Part shown: positions 48,369-63,562 of the stretch, piece by piece | Layout: each line of letters begins with the position of its first letter | Numbering within the stretch: the stretch's first letter is position 1 | From: Lobosporangium transversale | Lineage: Eukaryota; Mortierellomycota; Mortierellomycetes; Mortierellales; Mortierellaceae | Direction: 5' to 3' | Assembly: GCF_002105155.1 (NCBI RefSeq) | Contig: NW_019028998.1 | Coordinates: 372,001-436,000 of the forward strand | DNA: 64,000 nucleotides | The notes under the pieces: generated by a model | What the model was told of the DNA's origin: nothing | Databases searched by the model: none | The model's input: only the letters and a program-made list of their open reading frames with translations | Position numbers and translations under genes: made by a program

Positions 48369-50637
48369 TCATGCCTCCACTATACCCTTCCTGCGCTTAA
48401 CTTCCCCCCCCTCCACGGATTCCCGGCCCCTGCGTCTGACCACCCCCTCCCCGGACCGAATTCTCATCACCATATTCCGATAAGGCGTATCCAACGTCGG
48501 AAATGCACTACTGTCTCCAATGTGCTCCTGTCGCTTTTGCTTTAAGCGCTTGCTGGTAAGTCGAACCAATGATTGAATCTGGAATAGCCGGAAGAAAAAC
48601 AGCTGATCAACCGACTTAAGCTCAGATAAACAGATCGGCATTTTGAGGTCTGAGATCCTCGCATGGATGACAGTATTGCCAATCCTTGCGCCAAGGAAAA
48701 ATACTATGTCGTTGCCGATAGACTGAAAGCTTATAAGTGGCAGTTCCTCTTCTAGTTCTGGAAGTAGGTTGTCGAGGCTGTCTTTTGTGAAGACTGCAAT
48801 TCTGAGGGTATCGGCATTCTTCAGCTGCGTCGAAGGGTGCATGCCCTTGAGTTCTCCATAGTATGCTTCATGTCCCTCCTCCGTACGGCCCACAATGTCG
48901 GGGTGCCTAGCTTGTCCACCCTGACCCAAGACAGTTTTCCTGCTCTTGCCCGCAGTCGACATAGCGTTAAGGCTGTTGAAAAGAAATAGCGACAATTAAA
49001 CTAAGGAAGATCAACTCATATATCATATGATATATCGACAATCAGCCAGGGACATTACCATTTGAATTGGACATGGCCTGTAACGTTCATAAACTCACGT
49101 AAAATTGGCGAGATGACTGACAACATGGCATCACTTTCACTTTCAATCTTACTCCATGTGTTATAGTTTCGAAACACATATAGGGCCACAAACAAGATAG
49201 GCAATATATCTTTTTCTTGGCATGCATGGTATGATTCCATTATCAAGTCAACGACTGGCCCGACATCCACCTCGACCTCCTTGGCGTCTCCAAGTTCCTT
49301 AGAGAGGCAGCTCAAGAGATGCATCGATCCCCATTTCTACGTAGTCGGTTAGTATTCTCTTTCAGCTCGAAACAAAGCAAATAAGCAAACAAGAAGTCCT
49401 CAGCTATAACTACAAACCTGGACCCACGTGCCCCATAGTGCAGCTGCCTCGATTGAGCGCTCTACATCCTTCTCTTTTTGCTGGTTGCTATAGAACCGAT
49501 GGAGGACATCATTTGTAATAACGGTAATCTCATTAGCTTGGAACCCAACATGCGCTTTGTTAAGATGCAAGACACCAGAGAGTAGCCTAGATTGATAAAT
49601 TATATACTGATTAGTTTGTATGATTCCGCTCAAACGTGAATTTTATTTGCTTGGATCAAGCTCCTTACGCAATCTCGTCTACTTGTTCGTAGCCCAAAGA
49701 TGTTTTCTCCTTGATTTTGTTGTAGGACTCAGTTATCTGAGGTCCCCAGTCTTTCGACAGTGGGAGACTGAACGTGAATTCCGGCCGCTCCTTGATCCAT
49801 GACATATCTCCACAAGGTCGTCCAAATACTTCATCCTTATCTCCGTTATCTCTATCAAAAACCTCTTCACCATCAGCCTCATTCTCTTCATATTCATCGT
49901 CGCTGCTATTAAAGACTGGACGGGGCGGAGGCGACAGTGTTGGTGATGAAGAGCCCGACCCTAATGGCGGCGTGTGAACAGCTGAAAATGACGGGCGAGG
50001 GCCTGGAGACACAACGACGCGGCGTTGATTGTCCCTATTGGCAGATCCTGATGTATGTAATAAGGTTGCCTGGGCTACTGATTTAGAAATATCAACCGTT
50101 AGAGCTTAGATTTTCCGTAGTAATCTAGCATTCACTGTATTTATACGCACCTTTCTGTCCTCCTAGTTCGACTTCCGTCTGATTGGCATGTGAGGTCAAA
50201 TTGCGGCTTGGAGGCAGGGCCTCAACACCCTGTAAGGACATCTTTAATGCCAGTGCTCCTGTCTTGATGTCGGTCAACACTTGAAGGTTTGCAAGGTTGT
50301 CTTTGGCCGCCAATGTCTTGGCAATCTTCTTTTGCTCAATATCTTGCCAAAATACCTTGATTTGGCCACTCGTTTCGTTGTCCTTCGTCTGCTTCCGAAG
50401 GCGAGTGCCGAGATTTCGGAGCACCATGTCCCGATGGCGGATGAGCCAACTCAACATGTCGGTCCACCACTCTTCCATGCCCTGTTGATGTTCAGGTTGA
50501 GGTTGCGCTTCTCGGAAAAGATCCATCTGCTGAAAGTGGGAAGGATCCTCTAGGTTTATAATGTATAATGAGACGAGGGATGCATTGACGGGACACTTCT
50601 TAGCCCAAGTGATTAGTGCGCTGTTCCAATTGGCCAT
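48369..50637 (-). CDS. Uncharacterised protein with a PD-(D/E)XK nuclease-like motif
   Basis: Five exons (50637-50151, 50077-49669, 49586-49418, 49336-49059, 48972-48369) give an intact 648-aa protein in perfect phase. Residues 1-160 are helical and polar. A Ser/Pro/acidic linker follows (SPGPRPSFS, DDEYEENEADGEE). A helical domain at about 240-440 contains WIKERPEFTFSLPLSKDWGP. The final 200 residues contain GQGGQARHPDIVGR, then AYYGELKGMHPS: Asp473, Glu488 and Lys490 have the spacing and hydrophobic context of a PD-(D/E)XK nuclease core, and the next strand is ADTLRIAVFTKDSLD. The end is Arg/Lys-rich (possible nuclear signal). I recall similar repeated proteins from Mortierella-type genomes, but that needs a search. 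Function unknown; it lies head-to-tail with the XPG-RuvC gene downstream of that gene. Confidence 0.7.
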
Positions 50638-50899
50638 TTCCGTTATGAATAGAGTAGCTGCAAGAGTTAGATGGCTCTAATGGCTATGACCACAAATTTG
50701 GCCCTTTAGTCTCGTCACCAGCTTGAGAGGAAGCGCCTATGTACAGTACAGTACGCTACGTGTACGTGGTGCGAGGCAAATTGCCATTGAAACAGTAGCA
50801 AGGGAGCGGAAGTAAGTGAGAATAAGATGTGGGTACACATCACATCCATAGGATATTTATTCAGATCCATATCAAAGTATAACTACAAGTTTGTCTACG
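50638..50899. other. Spacer upstream of the PD-(D/E)XK-like gene
   Basis: It is the promoter side of the 648-aa gene and contains the first copy of the dispersed hairpin element (50815-50861). Confidence 0.5.
50815..50861 (+). repeat. Dispersed hairpin element, copy A
   Basis: A 47-bp core starting AGTGAGAATAAGATG and ending GGATATTTATT. It can form a stem of GATGTG and CACATC around GGTA. Weaker similarity to copy C continues for roughly 80 bp (shared ACTACAAG/GCTACAGG and TGTCTACG/TGTGTACG). It lies immediately 3' of the XPG-RuvC gene. Confidence 0.65.
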
Positions 50900-53800
50900 G
50901 GCGCATGTTTTCTGATACACAACCGTTAGTATATATATATATATCTTGTGTATATATTAAGTTTGAAATATGCAACATTCAGCATCCCAAGGTCCCCATA
51001 ATCCAAATTCTTTGATCCTATCTGTGTCTGGGACTCCTCGTTCATCCATTGAAAGTACTCATTGTACGTTCCCTTCCAAACACAGGGATAGCGCTCTCAA
51101 CCTCAATCATTCCTTTTTCACGCTTCCTTTTGTTCAACAGGTGATTGAAGCGGAGGACGGGGAGGTACAACCTGCTTCTCACCTTTACCGTTTGCCGCAA
51201 GTTAGGGTTGTGAGGATCCAGGGAGGAAAACGTAAGGGCGTTAACAATACCAGGATCGCATCCGACGATAGTTGTGGTGTTTGCGGATGGGCACCGCCCT
51301 GGTTTGTTGAATGTGAGCTCAACGTTTTCAAGCAGTTTGGAGCTCCTCTTCCAGTTTATGTTTGCATAGTCTTCATCTGTCAGGTCTTCACCAGCTGCCT
51401 TTGAACACGTCGTGTTGAGAAATCCCTGAGAAAGCCCCAGTTCTTGGCTGGGGTCTTCTTCATCTACGTCAGACTGCTGCTGTCTCTTCGTCTGGGTTGT
51501 GTCATAGGCAAGTAGATTCAGAACTAGACCATTGGTAGAAATCGTTCCTTTGAGTTTGAACCGAGTTAGATCTTTGCCCTGTGACTGCAAGGATACTTTG
51601 TCTCGATATCCAAGAACCATGCGATCGCCTCCAATGTCACAAAAGAGAGCCTGAATCAAAACCCCTTTTGTTCCCTGTACACACTCAAACATTGCAGTCT
51701 TGGAAGGATTGTCGAGAGGCAGAATACGCTCTAGTAGCTGCTTGGTATCTTCGTTCGCCCAGAGGATGTCAACTAGGACGTGTTCAGACAGATACACATA
51801 CCCGGGTGGCCAGGGGGACGTAGGAAAGTCTGAGTATTTTTTCACTTTTTTGTTCTCCCGCAAAAAAAACTCAATGTCGCTCATATCTTCGTTTGTTTTC
51901 TCGACATCAAACTAGAAAAAAAAAAAAAAAAAAAAAAAAGTCTGAATAAAGAGCATTTGATTGCAGAATATGCATGAAAATACCCTACACAAGCTATACC
52001 ATTGCGTTCCTGTAGTGCTGCCTTAATGATGTCTGTACTTGACCCATTAGTAGCTCTGACGCTCTGGAAATGAGATCTTTTTGGGATCAAAGCCTTGCAC
52101 GTCCCCCAATGTGATGTCTATTTCCTTTATTGGGGAAAGTTCAGTGGTGGCCTTGAAATATTCATAAGCGAGGAGGTAATGGGGCGTTTCTACCGCCTTT
52201 CCTTGTTTTTTTGCCCTCGCGTAAGCTGAATTGGGGCCACCTTGACCACTTAAAAGAAGGATGGCGAGACGGAAGGAATAATCATTGCTATCCAAGACCT
52301 CGTCCAGTGCCTTTTTCCTCGACTTTACTGCCCCTGGTAACCGCATGATCCTCTCAATGTCCAAGGCAATCGCCCAGTATGCATATCGGCGTAGTCGGTT
52401 GAGGACAACAACTGTCCCTCGGATCTGGCTTGCAATACTATCCCTTTCATCTGCGTCCAGTCCGCCTTTCCTTGCCATGGAGGCCTTAAGAGACCCAATT
52501 GTTAAGGCCTTGATAGGGTGCTTACTGCTGTAGCTGTGATCAACCCTCGTAGCATCCTTCAAGTTCCTAATTGGTGCACCTTCTTTTTTAGCCCTGTGGG
52601 GCTTCTTGCCTTTGTGCTTCCGCTTTTGTTTTTTCTGTTGCTTCTTTTTTGCCTTTCTCCGACGTGGTGGATGCTTAAGACCCGGCCTATCGTGCTGACG
52701 GCAGTTACTGATATCAACTGTGCGCCCATTCAATATGCTCGCCTTGTCAGAAAAGATGGGCCGGAACTGGTTCCTATGTGACCCTTCCGCTATATAGAAT
52801 GATGGTGCGCCTCTACATTATCCAAGAAAGGGACTAACGATTAGTATTGGGATGTATGGTTTCAAGGCCAAAACTATAGCTTGAGCTTTCTTACGTTCTG
52901 CGGCGCTGCGCTCGCCTTTGCTGAGCCATTCTATGGCGAAGATCCTTTCCATTGAGTAGACGCTGCTTGAAGTTATCGAACTCACTGTTCAATGGTAATG
53001 CTTGGGCCGACGTTTGATGGCCGGAAGTAAAAACGCGGAGAGCTACTCTGAAACGGCCTTCTTCAGAGGCTGCGTTCCTTCCCAACACCTTACTAGCTTC
53101 CCTTAGGTAGTCCCGAAGCATTTTATTGTAGTTCTCGTTCCACGCAACCTTTCGAATTAATCGAAGATTATTAACCGGGCCTAACGTCTCGAGGTTCCTT
53201 GAGTAGTCATTGCCTGCGATGGCACAGAATAACACCAGATGCGCGTGTGATGGCAGTCTTAGTGCTTGGATAACGTTGCCTACATCGTAAACCCCAAACT
53301 TCCGTCTACGGCGCGGAAGGGGTCGCACTAGGAAGCAGACCGTTCGTACGCAAAAAAATCAGAGTCTTGGGATATCACGATTCTATCATTCTCCTCATTA
53401 TGGCACCCTATACATGGGTCCGCTTCATATGCACACAGACAGACATCGAAGACAGAGCTAAGGCCTGTTGTCAGCTGATCCTTGTCCTGGGCGCTCAGGG
53501 TGTGGACTTCTCGAAGACCCTTCTGGATGCGCCTCATGACTTGAGGGCGAGTCCATACCCCACTCCGAGAATTTCTCTCGAAGGTGCTCATAGCGTTCTC
53601 CAAAGCATCCATATTTTTTTCTGTTATGACTTGCCATTCTGTCCTTGCTTTTTCTTTCTAAGGTTCCCCATCAATATGTATAGTCAGATTGTCCGTTATG
53701 AAAAGATCCTTTATCACGAGAGCCAGGGACCTTCCTACATCAATGATGGATTCGTTTTTCATCTTTGCATGGACGACTCTGCGGAGGATGTCGTAATAGA

Positions 53801-53924
53801 ACGTACCGAGGAGATCTACATGAACAGAATGGTCAGGGTTTGCCGCCAAGAAAGTGCCCACGTCAGTTTCCGAAGGTAAAACCCCGCGATCCGCAACCAG
53901 TTTGAAGAAGGACTTCAGCCCCAT
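50900..53924 (-). pseudogene. Decayed XPG/FEN1-like nuclease fused to a TnpB/Fanzor-like RuvC segment
   Basis: The gene starts at 53924 (MGLKSFFKLVADRGV). XPG-family metal ligands are all visible: Asp37 (VHVDLLGTFYYDIL), Asp85 (IHIDGEP), the Glu of AYEADPCIG, the two Asp of ISQDSDFFAY, and Asp of IAGNDYSRNL before a helix-hairpin-like segment. Breaks: an in-frame TAG at 53658-53660, a frameshift near 53335 (after YER), another near 52070, and one near 51060. Two introns look intact (52813-52894, and 51912-51999 with a T tract). After a Lys/Arg-rich linker and a helical region, FKLKGTISTNGLVLNLLAYD leads to TTIVGCDPGIVNALTF (about 51250-51290), a RuvC-I motif of TnpB/Fanzor type, then RKREKGMIEVESAIPVFGR. 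The RuvC-II, zinc-ribbon and RuvC-III parts are absent. Parent family: RNA-guided-nuclease relatives, by inference only. Confidence 0.72.
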
Positions 53925-53984
53925 GGCCAATATCTAAGCGAAAGAGAAAGAAAAAAGGAAAAATGGTGGCGATGAAAAGAAATG

Positions 53985-54019
<35 letters not shown>

Positions 54020-55185
54020 GACAAAGGTATAAAAGGATGAGCTTTTTTATATTGAGGAAAAGATACAGGAACAAGTGGCAGTGGTAAAAGGGATGGGACT
54101 TTGAAGGAGGAAGACAATGATCCCTTTTTATATCCTGGATTGATTGAGTTTTATCATTGTCTCATATAGTTTTGATATCGATCCTTTGCTTCACAGGCCA
54201 CATCAATCTTTATTCAGTTCCTTTGTTTGGATTGGGGTTTTGTTCAAGTCAATAGCAGAGATTGACAAATAAATACAAGCTCTCGTATGAACGGCAGATT
54301 GGAAACAATAGCATTGAGATACCAAAGTGAGCATTCGAAAAAATCATCTCCAGATACAGCATACAGTGTCGATGTCGATCCTTTGTTACATAATTTTTTT
54401 TTTTTTTCAGTTTCTTTTGTTTGCACTGGCCCTTGCTTTGTGCTTTGTGAGGAATTTAATGAATAAAAGAAGATTTATAATTTTGAACAGGGGTAATAAA
54501 TGCCTCGGTGATTATATCCTTGTCAAAGGTAACAACTAAAGAAAAAAAAGTCTTTTTTATCAGAGAATGGCTTCATATGATGCTCTTTGCTCCAACAGCC
54601 CCAGTACTATTGCGTTAAAGCAGAGATATTCGTTGACTCTCAGATTCCGGCATCAATGGCGGAGATAGGAGTGATGTAGTTGCATGCGCTTATTGCTTGG
54701 AGTAAAAGCTATCTAAGCACCCTTTCTTACTGGACGATGCCTTGTTAATGGTGATATTGCGCAGCGCCTTGTGGATGGAGGGAGAGCAGAAGCGAGAGTG
54801 GTGGTTTTTGGCGGTCGTTTGGTGTGTGTATGTGTGAATTTGATAGTTGATATCAATCGCCAAAACATATGCATCTAGAAATACAGAAGCGAGATTGATA
54901 CCGACGCGTTTGATCCTTTCCTAGGGATTGTTATAACCATGGGATGATTGTGGAGTGGCCGCCAAAATAAAGTTTGTTTGGAGGCACCAATGGAAAACGC
55001 TTGTGTTTTGAACAAAAAAAGACGTCGCGATGTAAAATGTGTTTATACATGTACAGAAACTTAAGAGATGCTTCAGCTGCTTATTCGTGCACACAGTGAT
55101 TGACGAACAAAAAAGGAAAAAAAAAGCCCGCGATGAAAGAAGGCATGTGCAGACAACAAATAAACACAGCTCACATACATTTTTT
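53925..55185. other. Intergenic between the XPG-RuvC pseudogene and a small unknown gene
   Basis: About 1.26 kb containing a 30-nt A tract (about 53985-54014) and a T tract near 54391. Short open frames look non-coding. No gene called. Confidence 0.45.
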
Positions 55186-55658
55186 TCACCGTTGTGTCTG
55201 TATCTCTTCTAAGCTTTCTGTCTAGCCGTTTAACACAAGGAACCCTCAGAAAAAGAAATACCTCGCATGATTGGTGCCAGGTCTGAAAACAACAACAATG
55301 CATTGCTGTACGTGGAAGATAGGGTCTATAAACTATACCATTGATCACAACCGCTACCCATGCTCTCTTGCCAAGGACTTTAACAGGCATAGCAGCCCCT
55401 TCTTCCTTGCTCTCATAACCGCTCACATCCTTTCGATGCATTCTTTCGCCATTTATGTCCACTACATCTGAACCACACACAATTCACCACTCACTCCAAC
55501 AGAGATATTTGTATCACCTTGGGTATGATATGTTGCTGTGGTTCCCTCCGGTTTCAACAGGCCCAACAAACTCTATAAGCTGTTTACCAAGCCAGATATA
55601 TCAAAGGAATGCAAGAAGACGAGGAAGCGAACGATGTGACAAATCAAGTCTTGCCGAG
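55186..55658 (-). CDS. Unknown multi-exon gene, N-terminus unresolved
   Basis: At least five exons join in phase: 55658-55588, 55572-55518, 55467-55339, a 21-bp exon 55282-55262, and 55208-55186 (ending TGA). The deduced C-terminal sequence runs RQDLICHIVRFLVFLHS, FDISGLSLLGLLKPEGTTAT, YHTQDVVDINGERMHRKDVS, then GYESKEEGAAMPVKVLGKRA, WVAVVINDLAPIMREEIQTQ and a final Arg. Every junction has GT-AG signals, and the introns are very short or modest, including one of about 15 bp (55573-55587), which is suspicious and suggests that the first two exons may be one or misread. The first coding exon, which must end in phase 1 upstream of 55659, was not found. I recognise no family. It may be a relic of a mobile-element cargo gene. 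Confidence 0.35.
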
Positions 55659-56909
55659 CTGTACAAGAAAAGATCAAGTTAGTCAAGCTCCATGGTGCGG
55701 AAGAATGGTTCCACTCAGATTGCCCTCCTTTCAAGTCGATACTACGGCAGCGAATATTATCGCTGTTATATTACATCAGTCAATAAATAAACGATACAAT
55801 GGACTCCCAAGGGGATGCTAGGGTCATGCGAAAGTCTTTCTTTCGATGTCGAAATAAATGACCGAAAACTAAATTGTCATGGAGCTATCCTGGCTTCTTT
55901 ATTTGTGCAAATAAAAAACTCATGAAATTTCAAGACAATGCCCATGGATTGCTGGCAAATTTGTGAGTCCCCTTAGATACTCAAGTTAGCCAAATATGCG
56001 ACAGCGACACCCTTAAACAAAAAATAAAAGTTATTTCATGTGGGTCATGTGAGCCAAAATATATATGGAAGTTCACTCTAACCTGTCTCTAAGTCCATAA
56101 TCATATGGGAAAACCATATATAAAAGTCAATTAAATGAACCTCAATCCAAACCGAACTTTGGATAATGCCAAAAGACACTAATATAAAGCGATATAGAGT
56201 AATTGAAGTTTCTGAAGAAATTGAGTATCCGTAGTGACATAAAAACCCAAGTGTAGCTTGGTAGACACTTGTTTAAAAAAATGTTTCGTTGAAATTAGTA
56301 AAAAAAGCAGAGCTCTATGATAAAGCCTTCAAACTTCACCATATTTTCAGATTAAAAGGACATGTCAATGCTGAATCCAACTGTGGTATTTTTACAGCGA
56401 CTTAGTTTACAAAAATAACCATCCTTACTGTTTAAAGATGGAGGAGAGACTATAAATTCCAGAAATTACTCTATTTAGAGAATTCAATGGGCATATTCTT
56501 GACAACCGCATTGCTAGTTCCTTGAAGTGCATATACATGGCTTATAGATATAGCTTTTGGGTACCAGAATCTATATTTTGCAATGTGTATCGCCATTACT
56601 GACAGAGTGATATTACTTTTGAACGAAATAAGATGTACGTAATCTTGAATATTTTCAATGTACAAGTTCTTTGAATGGAGGTATCTTACTGAAGACTTAA
56701 CCGAATCTTCTCAAGTTTTTTTTTAAATCGTACCAATGGATCTTACCTACAAAATATATGGTTTTCAGTCTTGTAGATACTCTATCTCAACAGAGAATGG
56801 ATTTCTTTTTTTCATTGTTCTGTATAAAAAAAAAAAAAGAAATCCTGATTTCTGATTGGCTATTTCAATTGTGCTCTCTTTGATTGAATTGGGTTGAATA
56901 GTTTTTTGA
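55659..56909. other. AT-rich DNA flanking the Mutator-like gene
   Basis: About 1.25 kb with no recognisable gene. I compared it by eye with the DNA right of the transposase for terminal inverted repeats and found none. No other feature seen. Confidence 0.4.
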
Positions 56910-61055: not shown

Positions 61056-62439
61056 TTCATTGGGTGTCCAGAGTTTCATCTCTTTTGTCGCTTTTTTATC
61101 TATCGATTTTTATCCGCCTGCTTTCTTTTTTTAGTAATGGACCGTGGAAGCAAGATCACGTTGCAAGTAAGCATTGACTGCTATAACGGTAGAGCCGGCA
61201 GAAGAGATCAACCTAGATGCTTGTCTGCTAGGGCCATGGGCTCACCACAGAATCCTTCTTTTGGTCTTTCTCCTCCTCCGTTCATTGTAATTAGGAAGAC
61301 AACCAAGATTGTTCAAATAACATATGAAATACTGTTCACAAACGAGACGAATGATGCATAATTTAGCGTCTTCAACCAAAATGAATAAAAGTCTCTTCTA
61401 CATTCGTCACTCTAAAATAACGTTCGGGATTCAGCAAGTCGAGCTGTAAAAAGACTCCGATATCTTATCCTAATACATAGTCCACGCATAAATCCTCGTC
61501 TGAAAAACTGCTTCCTCTAGTTCTTAAACTAAAAATAAACCTCAATATAAGCGTTATCCCATCTTATTCAACTTGGCAACCTCTTAATATTTTTAATTGG
61601 ATTAATCTAATTTGCAGCCTAGGTGCCAAATATAATGAATTTAGAAGACTCTCTTTGGCAAACCAGTTGTCAAGGAACACCCTCATGATTTGCTTGGCAA
61701 CCTATCTAGTGTTATTTGACCTCTATTTCTTGTTTTTCTGTAAAATTCTCGTATCTTGTTTACTGAGAACTATCCTGTGTTGATGAGAAGCACAGGAGTT
61801 CCTGTTGAACTTGTTGACATCCAACAAAAAAAGGTTTCAACGAGCTTTTTGATCGTGACATTCATCTATAATCCAGTGACAGTAACGGCTAGAGGTGCGT
61901 CAACATATTTATACGATCCTAATGCTTCCTGTCTTTCGACATTTTTATTTAGAGGAAGCCCGCCGATTAAAAGCGAGTTTTAATTGAAAGACTGAAATAA
62001 GGATAAAGCTATTTGCGCGACTCGTACACCCCTTATTTGTACCACCCCCGTGCAAATAAAAATAAAAACTATTTGCAAGGCGTCTTTATTTCATCTACAA
62101 GCGGCAACGTGTATCCTACAGACTACATTATTCTAGCTTTTTTATTTCGAATGAAATAAACAAAGATGAGTCTAGAGTAGTCTAGAAGTATTACTGTTGG
62201 AAGTTGCAGTGCCGTAGGAGCCGCGATACTCATCGCGTTCTGTTGCATATTCCACAGTATGCAATATTATGGTAGAAAAAAATTAGGGTAAAAAACACTA
62301 ATGCGCTAAAAAGATTAGCAGTAGAAATTAGTGGCAATAACGCGCCACACATAGACGCGATAAATCTTTGATTTGAAGTTTTTAAAACGAATTTTTGTCA
62401 TCCTATAGATAGATACGTAATTACCTCCACCAGAAAATG

Positions 62440-62488
62440 AATAAATGCCCCATGGGTGTGATGTGTAGACCCATATCCTGTTCTCACT
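62440..62488 (-). repeat. Dispersed hairpin element, copy B
   Basis: Inverted relative to copies A and C. On the minus strand it begins AGTGAGAACAGGATATG and ends GGCATTTATT. It can pair ATGGGT with ACCCAT around an 11-nt loop. Confidence 0.65.
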
Positions 62489-63562
62489 TACTTTTCTATC
62501 TACAAAATATTTTAACGCTCTATTCCGCTCTACAGTCACCCGAAAGAAAGTCTGGTCAGAGTTTTTTTTTTTTTGAATTCCTGACAAGCAGCTCATTTGT
62601 GATATACAAAAATACTTCACCACCCAAGATGGAATTTACACTTTTATTAATGAGGCCAATGTGGATAATCACTGAAGTTTTTGGGCAGTACATGCTGATT
62701 GAAGAGTACTTCTCTTTAAAATTTTATTTTTTGAGCAAACTTTCTTTCAGGTGATTGTACAATATGAAGCTCTACATGTGCTGCTGAGTATGCGACACTG
62801 CGTGCTTCAGACGACCCAAGGCAGGTTCTGACTATTTTATTGGTGAAAAATCAACCCTGATAATAATAAACTTGGAATGTAATGAGACAAAAATAAGGAT
62901 CTTTATCAATGTAACAAAAAAGAGTGTTTTGGTCTCTTCGCTATCACTATTCTATTAAAGTATTTTAGCTATTTAGATATAGGGATATAGGTAATTATAG
63001 CACGATCGGCTTTGAGTGAGAACTGCCACCAACTATCAAAAGATTAGTAATCTCTCGGGTTACAAACGGGTGAGAGGATAAACATTCCACAAAATAAATT
63101 GAGGTCTACCCATTGCATTTTGGTGAATTTAAACAAAATTTAGTACCGAGGAAACACACTCAAACGCGTCGCTTCTGTTAAAAACCATGTTGTAATCTAT
63201 ATTTCTGTATGCATATATTTTCTCAACTATCCAATTCACACACCCACACATCAAAAGATTGCCCTCTTTCTCGCTCTCCCATCCATCTACAAGACGCACT
63301 GTACAACATCACCAACAAGGTACCACCCAGCAAGAAGAGGGTGATTAAATAGCTTTTACCTCCAAGCAATAAACACAATCAACAATGTCGCTCCTATTTC
63401 CACCATTGATGCCGAAATCTGAGAGCCAATGAATATCTAACGCACGCAAATGTACTGAAGGTGTTGAAACAAAGAGCAACATCTGAATCCATTTTCTGAT
63501 AAAAATAAAACAGTCCATGCATTCACTGATGAAAAGTTTTTGGCAGACAAGATAAATAGTAG

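Follow-up and report, generated by a model that had tools for sequence, protein, structure and literature searches.

A truncated copy of a putative XPG-Fanzor mobile element in the fungus Lobosporangium transversale

Introduction

The stretch of 64,000 nucleotides analysed here (the window) comes from the 42.7-Mb genome of Lobosporangium transversale (assembly GCF_002105155.1, contig NW_019028998.1, positions 372,001-436,000 of the forward strand; C41:372001-436000 in the contig numbering used below), and it carries on its minus strand a broken gene in which an XPG/FEN1/EXO1-type nuclease is joined to a Fanzor-type RuvC nuclease. Sequences and structural models reveal a fused and spliceable architecture with the motif sets of both nucleases, two families of elements with precise ends, and one family A insertion between TA dinucleotides in which nothing was duplicated. 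With moderate confidence, the copy in the window is interpreted as the 3'-truncated remnant of an XPG-Fanzor mobile element that would home under RNA guidance and bring its own resection nuclease.

One fused gene with predicted introns

There are two main families of this gene in the genome: A, to which the window copy belongs, and B. They are 31% identical to each other in their XPG halves and 38% in their Fanzor halves. In the family B copy L030, three GT-AG introns of phases 2, 0 and 0 separate four exons, which together give an open frame of 1209 residues; exons 1 and 3 are open in the three family B copies compared (L029, L030 and L031), and the introns of family A match those of family B in position and phase. 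The whole fusion has about 1200 residues, of which roughly 341 at the N-terminus make up the XPG nuclease.

In the genome there are at least 159 matches to the Fanzor half of the window copy, with fragments counted singly, and 70 to its XPG half; the latter fall into 60 loci. When 79 of the 159 RuvC matches were entered in a pairing count, 51 of the 60 XPG loci had a RuvC half at most 4 kb downstream in the same orientation (47 of the 51 at 1.28-1.75 kb), so the pairing is not due to chance.

Related proteins are present in other organisms: Benniella P0047 (1160 residues, 34% identity over 96% of the query), Mortierella alpina P0049 (1404 residues), M. antarctica P0050 (1037 residues, partial) and the aphelid Amoeboaphelidium P0051 (1119 residues), in which motifs of both halves are present. 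Gamsiella, Entomortierella and other Mortierella species contain partial relatives with a single half. A search of viral contigs with the aphelid protein gave no match. In trees of six fused proteins, family B groups with Benniella in the XPG half (support 90/93) and family A with M. alpina in the Fanzor half (96/95); the trees are not in conflict and the identities of the halves correlate (r = 0.86). Because one copy is open and relatives exist in other fungi, the sequences strongly indicate that the fusion is real.

The two nuclease halves

The predicted fold of the family B protein P0035 is that of the XPG superfamily, EXO1 being the closest fold. Seven acidic ligands are recognised in family B (in ELDL, HIDG, EAD, GDSD and NDY): six were aligned with EXO1, and the first was assigned by motif. 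A Lys/Arg pair is also common to the XPG half and the XPG/FEN1/EXO1 superfamily, and some of the acidic ligands are absent or replaced in each of P0037, P0049 and P0051. The identity to the solved members listed is only 11-17%, and the curated Pfam cut-offs for XPG are not reached (best scores 13.2 bits against 24.2, 13.8 against 24.9 and 18.7 against 24.2); membership of the superfamily is therefore based on fold and motifs. When one protein was compared by sequence with the PDB, the alignments listed contained only glycine-rich or acid-rich low-complexity matches.

As far as the C-terminal half is concerned, the model of another copy (P0014) predicts a Fanzor-type RuvC fold, with SpuFz and Cas12f tied on Z, in line with the RuvC domain proposed in a preliminary description of this DNA. 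The DPG of RuvC-I is found as GCDPG in family A and as GIDPG in family B and Benniella P0047. The alternative catalytic Glu, six residues before the zinc ribbon, lies in HEFYTSARC in family A and in HEYYTSAKC in family B, P0048 and P0049. The Fanzor pattern D-X(125,275)-[TS][TS]-XX-C4-X(5,50)-RD is present in L030, with a gap of 223 and TSAKCPRPHC..CRNCKAYFDRD, and the CxxC ribbon and RuvC-III were likewise found in other copies.

The copy in the window

The features of the window copy are collected in Table 1. The preliminary description had reported the XPG motifs in minus-strand frames, and these are read as MGLKSFFKLV, HVDLLGTF, HIDG, YEAD, SQDSDFF and GNDYSRN; downstream of them stands the RuvC-I motif with its following segment, TTIVGCDPGIVNALTF, also as described, the catalytic Asp codon being at 51255-51257 within GCDPG. 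The copy is broken, as had been stated, by a nonsense codon at 53658-53660 in exon 1 and by frame breaks, located by comparison with the frames of other copies, near 53340 (exon 1), 52060 (exon 2) and 51070 (exon 3). Of the extent given earlier, 50900..53924, the upper limit agrees with the start of exon 1; the lower one lies about 100 bp too far, because similarity to other copies ends at 51001.

Table 1. Features of the family A element in the window (positions of the window)
Feature	Position	Strand	Basis
Truncated family A element	51001..55926	-	pieces of 83-96% identity in blastn with copy L009
Exon 1: XPG/FEN1/EXO1-type nuclease domain	52895..53924	-	start at 53924; open homologues; predicted fold of family B protein P0035
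Intron 1 (GTAAGA ... ACTAAT ... TAG, phase 2)	52813..52894	-	sequence; position and phase match family B
Exon 2: basic linker and N-terminal part of Fanzor half	52000..52812	-	frames compared with other copies
Intron 2 (GTATAG ... polyT CTAG, phase 0)	51912..51999	-	sequence, canonical borders
Exon 3, 5' part: Fanzor half with RuvC-I, cut off at 51001	51001..51911	-	frames; blastn with L009; junction

When 40 of 164 candidates were scored, the window copy included, the similarity to the 39 others ended exactly at this junction, which among them is unique to the window. RuvC-II, the zinc ribbon and RuvC-III are thus missing, as the preliminary description had maintained. The lost part amounts to the last ~700 bp of the element, which comprise the remainder of exon 3 together with exon 4 and the right end, and with it the C4-RD part of the Fanzor pattern has gone. 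At the other side, the outermost matching 97 bp (55830-55926) are inverted with respect to L009 in blastn. None of the open pieces of the copy reaches the Pfam cut-offs.

Elsewhere in the window there are weak repeats which resemble the 5' region of family B (50790-50902 and 62438-62489; 81% and 88%) or that of family A (63268-63505; 76%). Downstream of the element, on the minus strand at 48369-50676, four open frames without a Pfam match at 0.01 are perhaps exons of a host gene.

Ends, target sites and gene content of the elements

The ends of family A are precise (TCCCTT... and ...CAACAGA) and lie between TA dinucleotides. Among 20 fetched loci, chosen as best matches, 16 left ends and 19 right ends are readable; C stands directly before the left TA in 11 of the 16, and A precedes that position in 14. 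For one copy, L028, three paralogous places without the element (C40, C59 and C13; 72-77% identity) read GTATTATAGACATC. The filled site is GTAC-TA-element-TA-GACATC and the empty paralogues have TATA, so nothing was duplicated. A TA target duplication, a trait of Tc1/mariner-pogo transposons, had been allowed by the flanks alone and is excluded by the empty-site paralogues of this copy. In L022 the right end of an element of family B is interrupted by a family A element, which agrees with insertion without duplication if that family B end had the usual TATA. L009 and L015 have about 2.8 kb of right flank in common, to the end of the fetched DNA, and their left flanks differ from the left end of the element on, a pattern that one-sided capture or recombination would leave.

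Elements of family B have an imperfect inverted repeat of 16 bp at their ends, whose exact pattern has 41 matches in the genome as opposed to none for the reversed pattern, and G precedes the left end in all 12 copies for which both ends were read. When the 5' regions of L009 and L030 were scanned for unsplit frames, with an own HUH transposase in view, none exceeded those of shuffled sequences, and the fusion is therefore the only gene recognised in the element. The ends and target sites support a repeated mobile element, as the preliminary description had suggested; its further proposal, that such an element cuts and processes its own target, is taken up below as a conditional one.

Several other traits of these elements were observed. 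A 2.07-kb derivative of family B, L070 (C67:246500-248660), keeps both ends and an antisense piece and has lost the gene, and a family B copy (C85) contains an inserted stretch with only two frames of at least 110 residues (138 and 116). The antisense piece is a stop-ridden fragment of family A exon 3 (553 bp, 86% identical), which lies ~450 bp upstream of the start codon in the three family B copies read (L029, L030 and L031); about 30 further genome matches have a similar extent. Antisense RNA against family A may arise from it. In each of these copies, one frame of 177 residues is also present on the strand opposite to the family B gene. At the right ends of most copies of both families (L009-L028 and L054-L064), a short GC hairpin lies behind the stop codon, and after it come a splice-donor-like AAAAAATTTGTAAGT or AAAAAAATTGTAAGTA and an AG acceptor-like site 11-35 nt before the end of the element; the donor-like motif is absent in two of 14 family B right ends (L056 and L060). 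To judge by these motifs, an intron in the 3' untranslated region that joins the hairpin to flanking host sequence is possible.

Proposed mechanism and alternative explanations

The predicted protein consists of a 5' nuclease domain of FEN1/EXO1 fold, a basic linker and a Fanzor1-type RuvC nuclease. Guided by RNA from the right end of the element, the Fanzor half would cut the target, whether vacated or allelic, beside the motif of the left flank (ACTA for family A), which would serve as target-adjacent motif, with the right flank as guide. The XPG half would then resect 5' ends or trim flaps at the break, and repair would copy the element into the cut site. EXO1 acts in resection; since it is also the closest fold, this role is proposed for the XPG half. 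In a related manner, a break made by TnpB at the sister chromosome is thought to let the element copy itself by recombination, according to a passage in PMC10432273.

Nevertheless, several observations weigh against this interpretation. The C-terminal model is of low confidence overall, with a predicted local distance difference test score of 59.6, and of about 80-93 in the core. DPG is replaced by EPG in M. alpina P0049, from which the EAD stretch is also missing, and by DIG in aphelid P0051, whose ribbon is shifted (first Cys); the Benniella model stops before the ribbon, and M. antarctica P0050 has neither RuvC-I nor most of the XPG part. Exon 2 is interrupted in L029 and L031, which leaves L030 as the only one of the three open throughout, and the tail of L030 after the last domain is in a different frame from theirs. 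The ratio of nonsynonymous to synonymous substitutions among these three copies, 0.36-0.71 in the five of six comparisons that were computable and with few changes, is only mildly below 1. None of 20 family A copies proved fully open: the open lengths are 984 (L009), 34 (L013) and 129 residues (L023), and the other 17 failed a strict splice search. Empty sites were found for only one of seven family A flank pairs, at the identities given above, and for none of seven in family B among the 40 of 104 candidates that were scored, a weak negative because a repeat at one flank filled the list. Finally, when the right end was folded for one copy each of families A and B, no signal for a structured guide RNA emerged (z 0.5 and -1.0).

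Among the alternatives, it is unlikely that another transposase, of the pogo-type DDE or the rolling-circle HUH class, mobilises the elements in trans, with the fusion only securing retention or attacking competing elements. A protein model of Entomortierella lignicola (P0040) runs from a DDE_1 transposase tail (26.9 bits, cut-off 22), which we take to be pogo-type, directly into the XPG start, so at least one relative adjoins such a transposase; the genome has 44 DDE_1 matches, the 2.07-kb family B derivative retains both ends without the gene, and the antisense family A piece is borne by the three family B elements read. However, no helper with matching ends was found in the four DDE_1 loci read, which form two pairs, each inside a longer stretch that is duplicated; nor does the family A empty site show the duplication that DDE transposition would leave. 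This same site and the lack of inverted repeats in family A are unlike DDE transposons. Together with the fusion as sole gene recognised in both families (5' regions of one copy each), they would suit an XPG half that acts in transposition itself, nicking or trimming branched intermediates at the element ends during excision or insertion, with the Fanzor half choosing or restoring sites. Structures of FEN1 and EXO1 have, by their titles, been solved on flaps and recessed ends. Such a role is rather doubtful, given that the inverted repeats of family B resemble those of transposase-recognised elements, that DDE_1 genes exist in the genome, and that we know of no XPG-family protein acting as a transposase. 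About equally doubtful is a bolder reading, in which the fusion alone would mobilise a novel type of eukaryotic element: RNA-guided cutting and built-in 5' resection would by themselves copy it into TA^TA and no separate transposase would be needed.

It is improbable that the XPG half processes the guide RNA or its precursor instead of DNA. Two separate neighbouring genes are more improbable still. Automated L. transversale models of family B do often end at exon 1 (P0035 represents 13 of them), which speaks for two genes and against the fusion; the open spliced frame, the splice sites and phases conserved between two divergent families and the fused models in other genera led to the rejection of this explanation, and the single polypeptide of the preliminary description is thus favoured by the sequences. 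RNA-guided homing with an own resection nuclease stays as the preferred reading, at the strength stated at the outset.

Comparison with known systems

In the open-access literature searched, from which the 2023 Science Advances survey of Fanzor proteins is excepted, Fanzor never appears together with XPG or Mortierell; the records that pair it with flap endonuclease deal, by their titles, with animal viruses and gene therapy, and the passages on Fanzor returned by the terms tried contain no fusion to another nuclease. Within these limits the XPG-Fanzor element is filed as a new variant of Fanzor elements, and it would be the first case of a Fanzor whose chain also carries another nuclease, one that processes DNA ends. 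Fanzor proteins are eukaryotic relatives of the CRISPR nucleases; here, the fused EXO1-like domain points to break repair by copying, and the cut-and-copy idea is directly testable. If true, genome engineers would also take an interest in a natural RNA-guided cutter that brings a resection domain of its own.

Insertion of IS200/IS605 elements is not known to leave a target duplication. These elements and those of the IS607 type, with their TnpB, resemble the fungal element in the TnpB-type nuclease, in a conserved short motif at the left flank and in the one family A site without duplication, whereas the latter is eukaryotic, has introns and contains no recognised TnpA gene. Insertion of IS200/IS605 elements downstream of a short motif is described in a passage of PMC10711439. 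The unclassified Mucor elements MCi-2 and MCi-5 are also fungal Fanzor elements without recognisable inverted repeats; they have target duplications of 11-12 bp or a putative 6 bp, according to a section of PMC3627910 in which no XPG domain is mentioned.

With the XPG/FEN1/EXO1 5' nucleases the N-terminal half has in common the fold, the acidic ligand set and the Lys/Arg pair, but it differs from them in its low identity to the solved members listed, in Pfam scores below the cut-offs and in its fusion to Fanzor within a mobile element. Among known systems, the other half is close to Fanzor1 of Spizellomyces (SpuFz) and Parasitella (PpFz), with which it shares the RuvC fold, DPG, the alternative catalytic Glu, the zinc ribbon, the RD of RuvC-III and the transposon setting; unlike Fanzor1, the fusion bears in addition an entire N-terminal XPG nuclease, which brings the protein to its total length.
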